This document shows positions 1,700 through 24,791 of a stretch of 36,848 bases of DNA, piece by piece. This DNA is from a virus. The notes below the pieces were generated by a model that saw only the letters and a program-made list of their open reading frames with translations, was not told where the DNA came from and made no database searches. The DNA lies in the IMG/VR virus record IMGVR_UViG_3300030102_001857, positions 1 through 36,848 of that record; one strand, given 5' to 3'. A program made the translations under genes and the position numbers. Numbering within the stretch: the stretch's first letter is position 1; every line of letters begins with the position of its first letter.

Positions 1700-3199
1700 T
1701 TACTTCCTTCTCTCTAATTCTTCCAGAAGTGCTTTTTGTTGTTCAACAGTCATTTGCTCAACAGGTATTTGAACTAATATGTTTGAGATAGCCTCATCAG
1801 AAAGAGAACTTAACTGACTTAAATCTTCGGGAATAAGGTTAGAGGATAGAGCTGTTGGTTCCTCAAAACCAAGCTCTTGCCTTGCTCTTTGGTCTAAAAG
1901 GTTTGGATCAACTTCAATAGGCTCCAAAGGCTCATAGCCTAATTCACCATATTTTGCGCCTACGGCGATATTGTATTCCTGAATCCTATCTTTGTAACTT
2001 GTAAACTTATCAGTAAACAATCTTGAAATCTGCCCTCTTACAACTTCAGGGTTTTGAAGTAAGTTTACGTCACCACCTAAATTTGTAATAATACGCAAAG
2101 CGTCCTGTTCAGTCATAACACCGCCGCCAACGGTTTCAATTCTTGACCTACCAATCAAACCCTGCAATTCACCCGCCGCAAGTTTTAATGCAAGCTCTTC
2201 CTCACTCAGCTTTGCCATTTTACCTTTTCTGGAGAGAAGCGTTTTTATCGCCCCTGTCATTTGATCAGCTAAACGTGCAAAACCAACTTCAGAGTTTTGA
2301 ATGTTGTTCAGATAACTTGTGTATCTTTTTAAACTGGTTTGATCATCTCTCACTTCGTTTCTTAATTTTTTAAAATTAGAAGTATTTGGTATGCCCAAAT
2401 TAAAATAACTGTCGTTTACCGGAATTGCTGTAAGCGGGTCTAAAATTTCCTTTTTACCATCTTTTTCATAAAAAAGCTCATTAGTCATGGTATCAAAGGA
2501 AACACTGCCAATTATGTCATCACCAATTTTATAAGCACCTTTTTCTTGATACCTACCCCTATCACTTGGCGGCGTTGGCAACCTTCCTGTTAAAATGTAC
2601 GTTTTTCGATCATCGCCAGTTAATTTGTAAGTGTCGGCAAGTAATGTTCTTTGATCAGTCACATTTGTAGAACTTATTTGCGTAGCCTTTTTAAACGCCG
2701 CATCATATTCATCTTGTGTGATTTTACCGGCTTTTAAGTCGTCAGATAGCTTACCAATCGGAGATACAGCGGTGCTTCCAACAGGTTTAATATAATTCAA
2801 GACATTCAGCCTATCGTCATACTCTTTCTTTGTAATCCTATTGTTATCCAAATCGCTTTTAAGCTTTGCTATATTTGATAACGGTTGGCTTTGCTGTCTT
2901 TGAAATGCAATTTTATCATTGCGTATTTGTGCGGCAACGGAAGCAGGGTTATTGCTTGCTGAAATGATGCCCTTTTCTTGATCTGTAAAACCACCATCAG
3001 AAAGCAGTTTTGTCAAAGCCGCTTTACGCCGCCGATCCTCTTCCATATCCTGAAAGCTGCCATATGTGCCTATTCCGGCTTGTATGGCTTGCAAAGGGTT
3101 TTGACCATCTAACAACCCGATACCAGTAGTAAGCAACCCAAGATTTGCAGGCATGCCAAACTGACCAAACCTATTGTTAAAGTTGTCAAATATACCCAT
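1700..3199 (-). CDS. Putative internal virion/ejection protein with two SHOCT-like repeats, 499 aa
   Basis: The N-terminus is Gly/Phe/Asn-rich and hydrophobic (residues 1-50), followed by a charged helical region. Residues about 108-172 hold two copies of a short helix-turn motif resembling SHOCT domains: a leucine helix, a turn ending in ITKKEYD or ITQDEYD, then a second helix. SHOCT-like units usually act in oligomerisation. The C-terminal half is helical with a Glu/Gln-rich end. The start codon overlaps the upstream stop as TAATG. Position between the S74-ended protein and the 533-aa protein makes it a likely member of the DNA-ejection complex. No catalytic residues are visible. Confidence 0.55.
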   Translation of the reverse strand: MGIFDNFNNRFGQFGMPANLGLLTTGIGLLDGQNPLQAIQAGIGTYGSFQDMEEDRRRKAALTKLLSDGGFTDQEKGIISASNNPASVAAQIRNDKIAFQRQQSQPLSNIAKLKSDLDNNRITKKEYDDRLNVLNYIKPVGSTAVSPIGKLSDDLKAGKITQDEYDAAFKKATQISSTNVTDQRTLLADTYKLTGDDRKTYILTGRLPTPPSDRGRYQEKGAYKIGDDIIGSVSFDTMTNELFYEKDGKKEILDPLTAIPVNDSYFNLGIPNTSNFKKLRNEVRDDQTSLKRYTSYLNNIQNSEVGFARLADQMTGAIKTLLSRKGKMAKLSEEELALKLAAGELQGLIGRSRIETVGGGVMTEQDALRIITNLGGDVNLLQNPEVVRGQISRLFTDKFTSYKDRIQEYNIAVGAKYGELGYEPLEPIEVDPNLLDQRARQELGFEEPTALSSNLIPEDLSQLSSLSDEAISNILVQIPVEQMTVEQQKALLEELERRK

Positions 3200-4758
3200 T
3201 ATATCGCCCCCATCACTTCATTGCTTAACGCTGCATAGTCGAGCATTAAGTAGCCAGTTGGGTGTCTATAAACGTGTTCTGGGTAAAGTTTCTGAGCCTC
3301 TTGAGCCATAAATCCTTCAGTTGGATAAGTCTCAAAACGGTTCTTTCTAGCTGTTTCATTCCACTTCCAACGGTACACACTCAATCCGTTAGGGTGTTTG
3401 CCTAGCAACTCTACATCTTCTTTCAGCCTAGTATCTGAGGCAAGCAATCCTAATGCACCACCCCCTATTGCACCCATAGCGGGACTAAGCCCTGCAATAC
3501 CTAATGTATTCGCCAAACTAGCACCCGCTAGAGCACCGCCTAAACCTGATTGTAAGGCACTAGGACCGCCACCTGTCTGTGTGCTTGTCGTGCCAAACAT
3601 ACCTTGACCCATACCAGACGCACCAAGGAGCGCATTAATACGGTTTTGATCAAGAATATTTTGCTCTGCAACCCTAGCTCTTTCAGCGTCAAGCGCGGCT
3701 TGTGCAGGGGCTTGCTGCATTGCGCCAAGATCCTGAAGCGTACCAATACGACTTTGTTCAGCCGCCAATATCGCGGGTAATGCTTGAGCCGCTTGTAATT
3801 GCATTGCAGCGGAAGATTTGGTTTGATCTAACTGATTAGACGCAAGTGACTGAGAAGCACCTAACTGACGTGATAAGTCGGCTTGCTGTGCTCTTAACAA
3901 GTTATTTGCAATGTCTGTATTCTGTCCAAGATTTTGACCAAATGCCGCTGATAATGCTCTTGTAGCATCGACTTGATTAGCCAAATTAGTTTGCCCTGCA
4001 CCAACAATGTTTTGACCAAGGGTTGCTTCTCTTGAAAGATCTTGCCCTGATACATTACCCAACGCCTGTGCAGCCGCTAATCTGTTAGCCCTGTCTTGTT
4101 GTAGGTTTTGCGCCAATATCGGTGCAGCCGCATTTGATATACCCGCACCCAACGCTCCGGCAAATGAGTCGGAACCTAGCCTACCGCCAAGAGCATACTG
4201 TGACGTTGCTCTATCTACCGCACCAGAAATGGCACTATCTAATTGCTGTTGAAGAAATGGATTAGTGCCACCATCCATCGCCATAGTGCCTAAAAGACCT
4301 GTCGCTAGGTTCTCACGGTTTTGCTGCGCTGTAAGAGGATCAAGACTTGTTGATTGACGAGATAGACCCTGCAACTGAGCAATCGCCGGATCTGTACTGC
4401 CAAATAAACCTTCTAAACGAGAAGCATCAGCAACTTGATTTGCAAGCCTACTTAAGTTTGTATCATCAAAGGTAATACCTGTGTCACCTTGAGCAAAACC
4501 AGTAAGCGTTTGCTCCATTTGATCAATATACGCCGGACGCTCCATAAGACCTTCAGCCGCCGTAAGTGCAGCCTGTTGTAAGGGCGAAAATGGAGCCATA
4601 GTAGGCCCATCATATGCCCTTGGATTAAAGTCAGACGTAGCCTGGAAAGCAGCCTGAAATGGGTTAAAATCCTCATAGGCTTGCGTTAAAGCCGCCTCGA
4701 TTGGTTCTGGTAGCTTTTGAACATTTGTAATTGTTGAATTTTTACTACCCTTACTCAT
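3199..4758 (-). CDS. Virion protein with C-terminal S74 intramolecular chaperone-like domain, 519 aa
   Basis: Residues 1-60 contain a Pro/Phe-rich segment (GPTMAPFSPLQQAAL) of a kind common in marine podovirus ejection proteins. Residues about 60-390 are Ala/Gln/Leu-rich helix with many Q-L-A-N repeats, probably a long oligomeric coiled region. A Gly/Ala hydrophobic segment follows at about 395-440. The last 79 residues begin SDTRLKEDVELLG and match the peptidase S74 (endosialidase-type) chaperone, including the Ser-Asp at the predicted self-cleavage point (S441-D442). S74 domains normally trimerise fibres and then cut themselves off, so here the domain may guide assembly of an ejection or tail-tip protein. 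The start overlaps the stop of the gp13-like gene by 8 bases. Confidence 0.65.
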   Translation of the reverse strand: MSKGSKNSTITNVQKLPEPIEAALTQAYEDFNPFQAAFQATSDFNPRAYDGPTMAPFSPLQQAALTAAEGLMERPAYIDQMEQTLTGFAQGDTGITFDDTNLSRLANQVADASRLEGLFGSTDPAIAQLQGLSRQSTSLDPLTAQQNRENLATGLLGTMAMDGGTNPFLQQQLDSAISGAVDRATSQYALGGRLGSDSFAGALGAGISNAAAPILAQNLQQDRANRLAAAQALGNVSGQDLSREATLGQNIVGAGQTNLANQVDATRALSAAFGQNLGQNTDIANNLLRAQQADLSRQLGASQSLASNQLDQTKSSAAMQLQAAQALPAILAAEQSRIGTLQDLGAMQQAPAQAALDAERARVAEQNILDQNRINALLGASGMGQGMFGTTSTQTGGGPSALQSGLGGALAGASLANTLGIAGLSPAMGAIGGGALGLLASDTRLKEDVELLGKHPNGLSVYRWKWNETARKNRFETYPTEGFMAQEAQKLYPEHVYRHPTGYLMLDYAALSNEVMGAI

Positions 4759-18866: not shown

Positions 18867-19328
18867 GCACAAACGTAAGGCCACTATTCCCCCTTTTGGA
18901 TCGTGGCCTTGTTCTTTTGCCCATTCATTTGCACTAGCACCCTCTACAACTACCCATTGCGCTACGTCTGATAGATCTTTTCCTATTGTCCTCAGTGCAG
19001 CAAGATAGTCTGAAAACGCATCATGCCCTTGTTCATCGTTTCCGCGTGTACCATCCACAATGTTTGCATCGTATGACGCTGTAAGCTTTTGCGCCCTCCC
19101 TGCTCTACGCCACAATGCATAAAGCTTCATTCCGGCCTCAAACTGACGTCTGTTGATCTGTTCACGCGAGTAATACCTATCCAACGGCGTCTGGACCGTC
19201 ACACGCATGCGTTTAGGGCTTCCCAGACGCTTGTCTACGTTTTCGTAGGCAATCCCTTCTGTATGCTGCAAACGCTCTCTTGTTCCGAAATCAGACGGTG
19301 TGTGGATCGGTTTCTTGCTCTTCGACAT
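18825..19328 (-). CDS. DUF6456-like protein, 167 aa
   Basis: The C-terminal half has the DUF6456 pattern: QFEAGMKLYALWRRAGRAQK, then a Tyr-Asp segment, then ALRTIGKDLSDVAQWVVVEG, with ANEWAKEQ and IVALRLCLDALGDVFG at the end. DUF6456 is mainly alphaproteobacterial and its function is not known to me. Helical and compact, it may bind DNA. The first 38 bases overlap the preceding gene. Confidence 0.5.
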   Translation of the reverse strand: MSKSKKPIHTPSDFGTRERLQHTEGIAYENVDKRLGSPKRMRVTVQTPLDRYYSREQINRRQFEAGMKLYALWRRAGRAQKLTASYDANIVDGTRGNDEQGHDAFSDYLAALRTIGKDLSDVAQWVVVEGASANEWAKEQGHDPKGGIVALRLCLDALGDVFGMPRG

Positions 19329-19590
19329 TTTCTGTCCTCAATGCTAATGCTAATGCTAGATAATTGATCGCATCCAAAATATTGTCCTCGCGCCAGTTTA
19401 GATCGTTTCTACCTAGCTTGAACTCCACCATGTCCATTGCAACGTCACTTGGTGCAACTCTTTCACCACGCCTGATGGACGCTCTTATTGCCAACTGTTT
19501 AAATAATTCATCAGCGTGTCCATGTTCCCCACCACGTTCTATTAATATTTCTTTGCATTTCTCCAAAACCTGAATTGCTGCCTCACTCAT
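19291..19590 (-). CDS. DUF6378-like protein, 99 aa
   Basis: Resembles the DUF6378 phage family: an early helix, RGGEHGHADELFKQLAIRAS, then PSDVAMDMVEFKLGRNDLNW, and a final DNILDAINYLALALAL helix. The His/Glu/Asp placement recalls MazG-like folds, but catalysis is not shown. It overlaps the genes on both sides. Confidence 0.55.
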   Translation of the reverse strand: MSEAAIQVLEKCKEILIERGGEHGHADELFKQLAIRASIRRGERVAPSDVAMDMVEFKLGRNDLNWREDNILDAINYLALALALRTENVEEQETDPHTV

Positions 19591-20017
19591 TTTCTAATTC
19601 CCATTTTCTGCGTTTAATCATTTCTATTTGCCATGCCTTATATTTCGCCAGATTAGGCGCGTTTAGAATCTTTCTCCGATTAGCAATTCCCTCCAACATT
19701 CCAAGACATTGAATTTCATTCACCGTAGCCAAAAAATCCTTTTCTTTTAATTCAGCAAAATCAGACGATTTTCGGGACAAGGTTTCGGGACAGGACATGA
19801 CAGTATATAAATACTGTCCTGTTGTCCTGAGTGTCCCAAAAATAACCTCACCTTGTCCTAGCCGTGTCCTAGCCGTGTCCCCGAGCATGCTAAGTATATT
19901 GTTTTTATTGACTTTTTTCAGGACACCGTATGGGACATCAGGACACAGCCATTTTAGCTTCAAAATTCTCGTGTCCTGAGCGTGTCCCAGACCAATTTCG
20001 AACGGATATTCACCCAT
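19583..20017 (-). CDS. Unknown protein whose gene contains the origin-like repeat cluster, 144 aa
   Basis: The ATG at 20017 overlaps the primase-helicase stop as TGATG; a GTG one codon earlier is possible. The protein is basic (KLKWLCPDVPYG, VLKKVNKNN, MIKRRKW) with no recognised domain. Its coding region carries 14 TGTCC/GGACA pentamers and a perfect dyad, which probably limits the protein sequence. A gene downstream of a replication protein that encodes or carries the origin would parallel lambda O, where the origin lies inside the gene. Confidence 0.55.
   Translation of the reverse strand: MGEYPFEIGLGHAQDTRILKLKWLCPDVPYGVLKKVNKNNILSMLGDTARTRLGQGEVIFGTLRTTGQYLYTVMSCPETLSRKSSDFAELKEKDFLATVNEIQCLGMLEGIANRRKILNAPNLAKYKAWQIEMIKRRKWELENE
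19775..19987. repeat. Iteron-like cluster of 14 TGTCC/GGACA motifs, candidate replication origin
   Basis: In about 213 bases TGTCC occurs on one or the other strand at 19775, 19788, 19793, 19815, 19823, 19832, 19854, 19865, 19876, 19921, 19933, 19941, 19972 and 19983. Less than one would be expected by chance. Three copies at 19854, 19865 and 19876 are spaced exactly 11 bases and sit in the unit CGTGTCCTAGC; a further pair (19972, 19983) is also 11 apart. A perfect dyad GACAGTAT-ATAA-ATACTGTC (19799-19818) and an AT-rich stretch (about 19891-19918) lie within it. Iterons plus an AT-rich segment next to a primase-helicase fit an origin. Confidence 0.6.
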
Positions 20018-21783
20018 CACCCAAACGCCTCCAAAATGACCCCTTTTTCGAGCTTTAGGACACCCTGATCTATCATCCTTTTTATGTGTCTATTTGCTGT
20101 TCTCTGAGAACATTCTAGCTCCAATGCCACCGCTTCCTTGAGGTCAGATCTGCTCACCTCGCCAAAGTCGTTCATTCTATCAAATTGCTCTTTGACCACC
20201 TGTTCTGCGTAGTCTGGTGATTTTTTATCCAGTGGCTTATCTGGTGTCATTTCGAGCACCAGTGAACTTGTGTCTTGACCATCTGCGTCCACCAAAGACA
20301 CTGACAACTTCATAAACGCCAATGGTTCGCTTTTCTCTTCATCTTTCATCTTGGTGGGTGTGAGTAATATCTTAAAATCACCCCATTGTTCGACGCGATA
20401 TTCCGAGTCTAACGAGCCATGCAAAGCATACCCACCACGCCCTCTATCCTTATTCTGGTGTCCTATGTGGTGGACAATCATAACGGTGCATTGGTAGCGG
20501 TCCTTCAGCCTGTCGCACACTTGCACATATGCCATCATGTTTTGGTTATTTTCCTCTCCATCCAATGTTCTACTGAGTGTGTCGAGCACAATGAGGTTGA
20601 GCTTGCCTATTTGCTCTTGGAGTGCGTCTAGCTCGTTGCATAGGTGTAATTCACTGTCTGGATCGTTGAGGATTACACTACGATTGCTTTTGGCGAATGG
20701 TACGCCTGTTAGGTCTTGATTGAAGTTCTTGCACCACGCCGCGACACGTTTAGCAAACCCTGCATGCCCTTCCCCTGCGATATAGGCAACGCTTCCTTGC
20801 TGCACCTCTAGTTCGTGGTAGGGTTTGCCTGTGGCGATACACAGCGCCATATCAAGGGCTAAGAATGTTTTTCCTGACCCTGCCGAACCAAAGATCATGG
20901 TGAGTGAGTTGTCTTCTATTACGTCTTTGATCATCCACTTGGTTGCGGTCATGCGGAGATCGCTCACCATTGTGAAGAGTGTGTCGGGTTTTTTAACTGA
21001 GGTGAGGCTTTTGTAGACCGCTTCTAGTCCTAATTCTTGGTGTAAATCGTTAAAATCTTGGCCTTTTTTGGGTGGCACGACATAGGGTAGCTTGGTTTTC
21101 TTTGCCGCTTCTATCCCTTTTTCATCGTTATCAGCCGCTACAATGAGTTCAAACTGAGGGAACGCCGTTTGTAGCTTGCTGCACACCAAGGGTAAATTCC
21201 CTGCGTCCAATGCGAATATACAAGCACATCCAGAATGGGACATGGCTATACTTGCTGAAGTTGCCCATCCCTCCGCGACATAGGTGCGTCCTTTGGTAAG
21301 CTTTCCGGCCACACCGAAAACACCTTCCGACTTATCTAGGCCAGTGCTAAATAGTTTCTTTCCATCTGGTGAGATGGTTTGTTCGCCCACACGTTGTCTG
21401 TGAATGTTAAACAGTGGGATGACTACGTTGTTACCTTCAAGCTTTGCACCTAGCAGATCGACGCCTTTTTTCTCGTGATATGGCCTAGTATCTTCCACGT
21501 TGAAATCTTCTTTGGGTTGGAATGTTAAAACATTGTCCTTGATTGGATCGAGTGAGCACCACAGACCGCGTTTAGCGAGTTCGCTTTGGATTGCTTTAAA
21601 ATCCCCACATTGTCGGCAATGGGTCTTGATTATGCCTTGGTGGTTGGTAATCCAGAACCTGTCTGTCCCACCACAATTCACACAAGACCCATGCCATTCG
21701 CCTTTTGCGGTTTGCTTGAGGTCCAAACCATCTATTATGCGTTGGGCGTACTCACTCCAATAAGGTTGTTCATAGTCAGGCAT
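20017..21783 (-). CDS. Primase-helicase replication protein, 588 aa
   Basis: Starting at MPDYEQPYWSEYAQRI, where the ATG overlaps the upstream stop by 8 bases. A zinc ribbon lies at C34/C37 and C56/C59. A Toprim core follows, with E171 in VAEGW and DND at 218-220. Then comes a RepA/AAA-type helicase with Walker A GSAGSGKT (299-306), Walker B LNLIVLDTLSRT (about 385-396) and IVHHIGH. A C-terminal winged-helix-like region (about 545-588) could bind DNA. Such proteins make RNA primers and unwind DNA at the fork. No polymerase gene is present, so it probably recruits the host replisome. Confidence 0.85.
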   Translation of the reverse strand: MPDYEQPYWSEYAQRIIDGLDLKQTAKGEWHGSCVNCGGTDRFWITNHQGIIKTHCRQCGDFKAIQSELAKRGLWCSLDPIKDNVLTFQPKEDFNVEDTRPYHEKKGVDLLGAKLEGNNVVIPLFNIHRQRVGEQTISPDGKKLFSTGLDKSEGVFGVAGKLTKGRTYVAEGWATSASIAMSHSGCACIFALDAGNLPLVCSKLQTAFPQFELIVAADNDEKGIEAAKKTKLPYVVPPKKGQDFNDLHQELGLEAVYKSLTSVKKPDTLFTMVSDLRMTATKWMIKDVIEDNSLTMIFGSAGSGKTFLALDMALCIATGKPYHELEVQQGSVAYIAGEGHAGFAKRVAAWCKNFNQDLTGVPFAKSNRSVILNDPDSELHLCNELDALQEQIGKLNLIVLDTLSRTLDGEENNQNMMAYVQVCDRLKDRYQCTVMIVHHIGHQNKDRGRGGYALHGSLDSEYRVEQWGDFKILLTPTKMKDEEKSEPLAFMKLSVSLVDADGQDTSSLVLEMTPDKPLDKKSPDYAEQVVKEQFDRMNDFGEVSRSDLKEAVALELECSQRTANRHIKRMIDQGVLKLEKGVILEAFG

Positions 21784-22063
21784 CAGCTTTGCAACGCTCC
21801 AACTCACGTTGTTTAAAATCTAAATCTTCTTGTAATTGGAGTATGGCTTTTGATGCGTCGCGCCTTGATATAGGCAAGTTTATGCGCAACGTACCGCAGT
21901 AGACGTCGATAAAAGCTCTGCCGCCTAATTCTTCTATTTGTATTAATACATTATTTAACTGCGTGGACAGTTGATTAATTTTCCAAAGCTGCTTATCGGT
22001 TGCAAGCTCCCCCGACTTCGTCAGGTAGAGCTTTTCTCTGCGTTTACTTTCAAACCGTGCCAT
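21776..22063 (-). CDS. Unknown small coiled-coil protein, 95 aa
   Basis: A charged N-terminus (MARFESKRREKLYLTKSGEL), a helix LWKINQLSTQLNNVLIQIEE, a short strand segment GRAFIDVYCGTLRIN and a last helix with LQEDLDFKQRELERCKA. It lies between the SSB-like and primase-helicase genes and overlaps the latter, so a replication accessory role (such as a helicase-loading partner) is possible but unproven. Confidence 0.5.
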   Translation of the reverse strand: MARFESKRREKLYLTKSGELATDKQLWKINQLSTQLNNVLIQIEELGGRAFIDVYCGTLRINLPISRRDASKAILQLQEDLDFKQRELERCKADA

Positions 22064-24300: not shown

Positions 24301-24550
24301 CGTACACCACCTCACCTCGTTGGGCGGCTTGGACAAGTCTTATGGCGTCTTGAATGTCATCTTTGATCGTGAGCCATGCTTCCACTGGCACGTCACCCTG
24401 CGTGACCTTTTGAATTTCCAAGGCAGTCACCACATTTGGTAGAACGTCACCGCTGATATAACGAGATAAGGTGGGTTGAGATACGCCGATTCTCTTGGCG
24501 AGTGAGGCTTGCGATACCTCTTTTGTGATCATATACTCAAATAACTGCAC
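24290..24550 (-). CDS. Cro-like helix-turn-helix regulator, 86 aa
   Basis: Residues 10-40, SQASLAKRIGVSQPTLSRYI, are a clear HTH of the Xre/Cro type; the C-terminal part is helical and acidic. It opens the leftward early operon and faces away from the repressor across 240 bases of AT-rich operator DNA, the standard arrangement of a cro-cI switch. It probably represses the repressor promoter after induction. Confidence 0.75.
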   Translation of the reverse strand: MQLFEYMITKEVSQASLAKRIGVSQPTLSRYISGDVLPNVVTALEIQKVTQGDVPVEAWLTIKDDIQDAIRLVQAAQRGEVVYDGE

Positions 24551-24791
24551 GATTTCTGCCTAATTTTTGTCGCTTTATTTTATGCATAGTTCTTAAATAT
24601 GCATAATGTCAACTATAATATAGGTAAAATATTCATATTAAATACTTAGGTAGATACTAATAGTATGTTTTTATTATATTTTATTGTGGTGTGAAATGTT
24701 ATATTATAATCATTTTAAGTTTTGACTATTTTTATTATTGACATATTAATTCATATGTGAATAAAATAATTACGTGAATAAGGAATGAAAA
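24551..24791. promoter_or_regulatory. Immunity region: divergent promoters and three kinds of dyad
   Basis: Leftward promoter: minus-strand TTGACA at 24612-24607, with TATGCA 18 bases on as a weak -10. Its spacer and -10 are covered by the perfect inverted repeat TTATGCATA-N9-TATGCATAA (24580-24606). Rightward promoter: TTGACA (24738-24743), 18 bases, TAAAAT (24762-24767), with ATTCA-TATG-TGAAT (24749-24762) in the spacer. Between them is a third dyad, ATACTA-A-TAGTAT (24654-24666). Two regulators with separate site types would explain the different dyads. Confidence 0.6.

Follow-up and report, generated by a model that had tools for sequence, protein, structure and literature searches.

A repeat array directly behind a phage primase-helicase gene as a predicted replication origin matched to the enzyme's own winged helix

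Introduction

What is the role of a dense cluster of one short word that lies just behind a replication gene? This question is raised by positions 19775-19987 of IMGVR_UViG_3300030102_001857, the 36.8-kb record of a marine virus (the window, meaning here the whole stretch of 36,848 nucleotides), where the pentamer TGTCC and its complement GGACA recur next to a primase-helicase gene. The comparisons reported here make it very likely that this array is the replication origin of the phage and that the primase-helicase encoded beside it acts as its own initiator. The argument is built on sequence analysis, namely the cluster and its placement, the replacement of its word in relatives, the co-variation of that word with a recognition helix, the domain architecture of the enzyme, and a hairpin with a biased loop. 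The origins of most environmental phages are unknown; if our reading is true, they can be read beside this helicase family in viral contigs.

Results

A sequence-only reading of this DNA had taken the locus for a candidate origin, pointing to fourteen exact copies of the pentamer, and our count gives the same figure: eight copies read TGTCC on the plus strand and six read GGACA, which places them on the minus strand. Three of them (19854, 19865 and 19876) are spaced by 11 bp, as it had said, and its placement of the array directly after the primase-helicase gene is also correct, the array starting past the stop codon of this minus-strand gene. The base after every TGTCC in the cluster is a pyrimidine, giving TGTCCY/RGGACA as the full word. 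The same reading called the pentamer over-represented; this holds for the cluster, with 14 copies per 213 bp, but not genome-wide, where 60 copies are found against 54 expected, and therefore the signal is the cluster itself. Indeed, among all pentamers of the window GGACA clusters most, and when the window was simulated 200 times with an order-3 Markov model, it reached at most 4 copies per counting window, versus 14 in the real sequence; any pentamer, low-complexity ones included, reached 14 in 9 of the 200.

The word is also conserved. Across 13 close relatives, 7 of 70 motif bases are variable, versus 42 of the 152 remaining array bases (Fisher p 0.003). The layout of the sites is retained in loci L080 (12/13) and L086 (9/14), and a 45-nt gap between sites, measured start to start, is retained in L080, L085 and L086. 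The longest spacer without a motif (19881-19920), the second half of which is AT-rich, is a candidate unwinding region. The GC skew, suggested earlier as a check, has no origin-like switch at the array, and its changes track gene orientation. An Rfam search of the window returned no match, nor did blastn of the array against a phage collection, the latter being expected if arrays diverge fast.

The gene in front of the array (20017-21807, minus strand) encodes a primase-helicase of 596 aa when read from its GTG, with relatives starting near residue 9, and its product is the predicted replication initiator. The predicted domain order is a zinc/TOPRIM primase, a RecA-fold hexameric helicase and a C-terminal winged helix, and Pfam identifies Toprim_3 (6e-9) and AAA_25 (3.5e-37). 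The full-length AlphaFold2 (AF2) model, with a predicted local distance difference test score (pLDDT) of 77 and a predicted template modelling score of 0.47, has T7 gp4 (6n9x) as its best Foldseek match (E 1.6e-14), and a profile of the relatives finds RSF1010 RepA in the PDB (1g8y, E 2.2e-5) at profile positions 307-459. The winged-helix domain, residues 531-593 (20029-20217, minus strand), is the predicted reader of the repeats. Modelled alone, the last 86 residues reach a pLDDT of 81, and about 90 over this domain, which folds as helix, short strand, helix, helix and two-strand wing; the full-length model shows the same C-terminal domain. Foldseek matches of the isolated domain are mostly winged-helix regulators, IclR, CRP and DtxR among them, together with other winged-helix-containing proteins. 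Its predicted recognition helix, helix H58-70 of the fragment model, corresponds to residues 568-580 (SQRTANRHIKRMI; 20068-20106, minus strand).

In the window and in most relatives the helicase gene is followed immediately by an array of short repeats, and of 45 helicase loci that were scanned, most had their densest repeat cluster at the helicase end. These words are 5-8 bp long and occur in both orientations, unlike the long direct repeats in one orientation of a classical iteron plasmid origin. Helicases 42% identical to that of the window (L016-L021) are followed at the equivalent place by a CGACA/TGTCG cluster, without a TGTCC cluster, L026 has ATACCAA there, and further words among the relatives include GTACCA, GGTAAC and GTGACA. 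The cultured phages include PB15 with GGTTCAC, 1N2-2 with GGTACAC, CGphi29 with GGGACA, CRP-406 with GCTGGAAA, CRP-811 and CRP-823 with CTACAAA, CRP-821 and CRP-831 with GTATAAA, and Rhizobium 16-3 and RHph_X2_25 with CGTGACA. When the small gene that overlaps the array in the window was used as the query, 80 loci were obtained, most of them with a dense array preceding it, whose words include CGTACCA, GATACCA, GTCGGAAA, GGAGGAAA and GGCATA. The sequence-only reading had held that relatives with the same protein and no motif cluster would speak against an origin. Taken literally, the 42%-identical relatives are such a case; yet another word clusters at the exact spot, and because it sits there and follows the recognition helix we do not regard this as a refutation.

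No clear array was seen in L154-L156, L162, L163 and L167, and the array is thus not universal for AAA_25 helicases. The words are weak or unclear in the arrays of L083/L084 and L087, and BcepGomr (L166) failed the repeat test, although inspection by eye shows an AT-rich word and a hairpin with a TTTA loop. A scan of genome contigs gave nine distant matches only, and a search of plasmids gave helicase matches of partial length only.

That the word follows the recognition helix emerges from helicases of the PB15 type, a scan for which gave at least 496 matches, with 80 loci kept. Mutual information between the word and each alignment column was calculated for 54 dereplicated proteins with an assignable word, cultured PB15-type phages included; such sequence counts differ from counts of independent events. 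The mean z was 9.1 at residues 590-640 versus 3.5-4.0 at residues 1-560, and all ten top-ranking columns fall within the recognition helix, at 606-622; it is the columns equivalent to residues 568-580 of the window protein for which mutual information with the word is highest. With the set thinned to 33 proteins, the values were 5.95 at residues 600-626 and 1.7 in the body. Proteins with GGTAAC (10) and with GGAAC (7) are cleanly separated at two alignment columns only, one a Gln/Val difference in the recognition helix and the other seven columns further on. In the pair L201 (GGGGGC) and L179 (GGAAC), residues 1-560 are 97.2% identical while the winged helices and the words differ, the pattern expected from the exchange of a cassette. 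L016 and L026, with different words, are 84-100% identical in the first 250 residues (the primase) and 18-57% after. The layout of the sites can be the same despite a different word, as in L157/L159 (10/10), L157/L088 (7/11) and L200/L184 (6/7), where p is 0.003, the lowest value that 300 shuffles can give. The layout of the window is not significantly shared with the CRP or PB15 layouts (p 0.26-0.35), and layout is kept within groups only. The earlier proposal of a candidate origin is therefore supported by comparative evidence, with word clusters at the same place that co-vary with a recognition helix.

The same co-variation bears on another reading, in which the array serves for partition (as a parS-like site) or for packaging and lies beside the helicase by chance. 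Clusters of short repeats are generally known to mark such sites too, and no tool result speaks in favour of one here. Against it, the identity of the word tracks the helicase recognition helix, and the arrays of the phages viewed have no recurrent neighbour annotated as ParA/ParB or terminase, a terminase gene being within 2.5 kb in CGphi29 only; we consider this reading very improbable.

The array overlaps a small gene of 144 aa (19583-20017, minus strand), which starts from the ATG of a TGATG that includes the helicase stop and has a conserved C-terminal core (ANRRKIL...RRKWELE). The 145-codon frame is open and of the same length in all 13 close relatives, and over codons 4-74 variable sites number 22 at third positions versus 13 and 11 at the others; for these reasons the repeats are probably translated in the window's clade. 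Where relatives use another word, this frame is interrupted and the small gene begins past the array: the conserved 71-aa part, which in the window runs from an internal ATG (MSCPETLS...; 19583-19798, minus strand), equals the whole gene where the array is intergenic. The earlier statement that the array lies inside a coding gene is thus right for the window's clade and not for most relatives, in which it is intergenic.

One might then regard the repeats as a by-product of a repetitive LGQ/LGH segment in the 144-aa protein, whose frame is indeed open and weakly constrained in the window's clade. Such an origin of the repeats is hardly credible: the copies are found on either strand and do not share one reading frame, variation is lower at the motif bases than around them, and no frame is open at this place in relatives that use other words. 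The product of the small gene, which has no match in Pfam or PHROG, was also considered as the reader of the array and was ruled out because its core is nearly identical in phages with different words. Consequently, of the two binders proposed from the sequence alone, the primase-helicase is favoured and the 144-aa protein is not. As a possible role, the small protein may be a replication partner.

Several observations concern this gene in its own right. Its core (ANRRxxL...RKxELE) is found beside arrays of many words, including those of the L133/L136 type, which lie apart from the helicase. In L139 (3220-3400) an array of the ATCATAAT type is read before the small gene, 3' of a RuvC-like gene; in the records related to it (L133, L136, L137, L130) the AAA_25 helicase is located elsewhere, and in L148, which is the L136 record, the helicase C-terminus is like that of the ATACCA group. 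L093 encodes at 2205-3338 a 377-aa AAA_25 helicase, too short for a TOPRIM primase and with its own C-terminal helix-turn-helix, behind which TATAACA repeats lie beside the same small gene.

The perfect 8-bp dyad of the initial description is present as well, with the stem GACAGTAT/ATACTGTC (19799-19806 and 19811-19818) and a 4-nt loop, TTAT. It forms a terminal hairpin (19799-19818, minus strand) with inverted motif copies on both sides, and in most arrays a hairpin occupies the distal end between inverted motif copies. Perfect stems of at least 6 bp with 4-nt loops occur at 2.52 per kb in arrays versus 0.38 elsewhere. The stem varies among relatives, and the loop is often TTTA or TATA; in the dereplicated set, one of these loops is present in 24 of 43 array hairpins versus 0 of 145 elsewhere. 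Among array hairpins the loop TTTA (17) far exceeds its complement TAAA (1), and this strand bias suggests that the hairpin acts as a folded single strand. By analogy with RSF1010, which primes at the single-strand hairpins ssiA and ssiB (PMC4434180), we infer that it may serve as a priming site. Four close relatives (L011, L014, L037 and L038) have a second version of the stem with paired replacements, which, with two versions only, is weak evidence for the hairpin.

DnaA boxes (TTATMCACA) are likewise concentrated in the arrays, with 66 copies (2.46 per kb) versus 26 elsewhere (0.054 per kb). Within the first 330 bp past the helicase stop of PB15-type loci, L200 and L184 among them, up to three perfect boxes (TTATCCACA) flank the arrays, which suggests that host DnaA takes part in these phages and not in the window's clade. 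The concentration of boxes in many arrays speaks against the array being instead an operator, through which the winged helix or another phage regulator controls transcription or translation of the replication operon while replication starts elsewhere. Winged helices are typical repressor domains, a CI-type repressor gene is nearby, and the array lies within the operon and overlaps a coding frame, where the hairpin could act in the messenger RNA. However, at least ten sites lie past the stop codon of the helicase, 3' of the gene that they would have to control, the predicted reader belongs to the same polypeptide as a replicative primase-helicase, and TGTCC sites do not cluster near the CI gene. 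We therefore judge the operator unlikely.

Discussion

From these data we infer that the array is bound and unwound, that helicase is loaded and primers are made there, and that it serves as an origin; this could proceed as follows. The C-terminal winged helix of the helicase would bind TGTCCY on double-stranded DNA, and the many sites in both orientations would gather helicase subunits on two sides of the AT-rich spacer and the terminal hairpin; the DNA would open, the RecA-fold rings would load and unwind it, and the TOPRIM domain would lay primers, perhaps at the exposed hairpin. Reader and sites may be exchanged jointly as one cassette, which is possible because the reader domain is encoded just before the sites and one recombination can move both; this would explain why relatives have matching but different words.

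Several points weigh against an origin read by its own helicase. (i) As regards the array, it is missing behind the helicase in the PB15-type locus L191, although the winged helix there resembles the GGTAAC type, and in L221, L249, L250, L252 and L253, which are PB15-type with a divergent C-terminus, and in the L133/L136 type it is away from the helicase. (ii) As regards the reader, all Foldseek matches of the isolated winged helix have E > 1e-3. (iii) As regards the co-variation, it was measured in PB15-type relatives, the window's own clade being well sampled for TGTCC only; the word labels were picked by inspection, with 16 of 85 PB15-type loci left without a label, and a strict hexamer shuffle test, which largely filters out G-rich words, was individually significant in 33 of 59 PB15-type loci. 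(iv) As regards the window itself, its hairpin loop (TTAT) differs from the common TTTA/TATA, and its array has no DnaA box of the kind that a DnaA-assisted origin would carry. By analogy with the PB15-type helicases, the window's own winged helix would read TGTCCY.

How does this module compare with known systems? Like T7 gp4, the enzyme has a TOPRIM primase followed by a RecA-fold helicase, as seen with Pfam and Foldseek; unlike T7 gp4, it has an extra winged helix (residues 531-593) after the helicase and an adjacent repeat array. To our knowledge, T7 gp4 is not an origin-binding initiator. On the models, the window enzyme is thus a T7 gp4-type protein with an added, predicted origin reader. 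The lambda O/ori and P4 alpha/ori systems resemble it in that a phage initiator has dedicated repeats near or in its gene. Lambda O is a phage initiator that is not a helicase and has the iterons in its own gene, whereas here the array lies past the helicase stop, in the next gene or intergenic. The parallel with lambda O drawn in the sequence-only reading accordingly stands for repeats near an initiator gene and fails in the arrangement, since the predicted reader is encoded upstream and the sites are in the next small gene, in the window's clade only. P4 alpha is a single polypeptide that acts as primase and helicase and also binds the origin, and its helicase core is different. In RSF1010, iterons are bound by a separate protein, RepC. 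RepA of this plasmid is the best PDB sequence match of the helicase, which shares its RecA-type fold; unlike RSF1010, where RepA (helicase), RepC (initiator) and RepB' (primase) are separate, one chain would here carry all three functions, and its primase is of the TOPRIM and not of the archaeo-eukaryotic type.

The closest plan is found in staphylococci. In Rep/ori of the Staphylococcus aureus pathogenicity islands (SaPIs) and in Cch2 of the staphylococcal cassette chromosome mec (SCCmec), the C-terminal domain of an initiator helicase binds short repeats directly 3' of its own gene, and the Cch2 iteron is the pentamer AAGTG (PMC7581432). Cch, related to SaPIbov1 Rep, carries DUF927, and Cch2 is a 3'-5' helicase of the D5/Primase_Cterm type (PMC7581432). 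The window resembles them in its repeats directly downstream of the helicase gene and, as regards Cch2, in the pentamer word; it differs from both in a RecA-fold (AAA_25) helicase that is fused to TOPRIM, ends in a winged helix and has neither a DUF927 nor a D5/Primase_Cterm core, and from Cch2 in having many more sites, in both orientations, plus a conserved hairpin. The module follows the SaPI Rep/Cch2 plan and is outside that family, because its helicase core is unrelated. In the open-licence literature we found no description of a module consisting of primase-helicase, winged helix and array, and the paper on CRP-406 is silent on iterons and on repeats.

With somewhat less confidence than for the window itself, we think it probable that these loci represent a widespread class of phage origin, in which a T7-like primase-helicase is a self-initiator with an exchangeable cassette of winged helix and about ten matching words. 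The class would comprise about a dozen or more specificities, a Gln/Val change would go with a one-base change of the word, the layout could persist while the words are rewritten, and a readable protein-DNA code could be worked out. As for scale, a single scan already gives the 496 or more PB15-type matches. The natural helicase/word pairs are a ready data set for the choice of DNA by winged helices, and they bear on an evolutionary puzzle: how an initiator and ten dispersed sites change specificity together.

The window carries an integrase and a CI-type repressor, and the virus is therefore probably a temperate phage. Upstream of the primase-helicase are genes for a Gp2.5-like single-stranded DNA-binding protein, an exonuclease VIII-like protein and a RusA-like resolvase. 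Between the RusA-like and CI repressor genes, an AATAT/AATAA-rich region (24539-24640) is among the densest pentamer clusters of the window and is probably an early promoter and operator region. On the other side of the array, 19291-19590 (minus strand) encodes a 99-aa protein with DUF6378, which PHROGs labels as phosphofructokinase; in the CRP phages, the arrays are followed at a distance of a few genes by small genes with the annotation dATP/dGTP diphosphohydrolase or phosphofructokinase.
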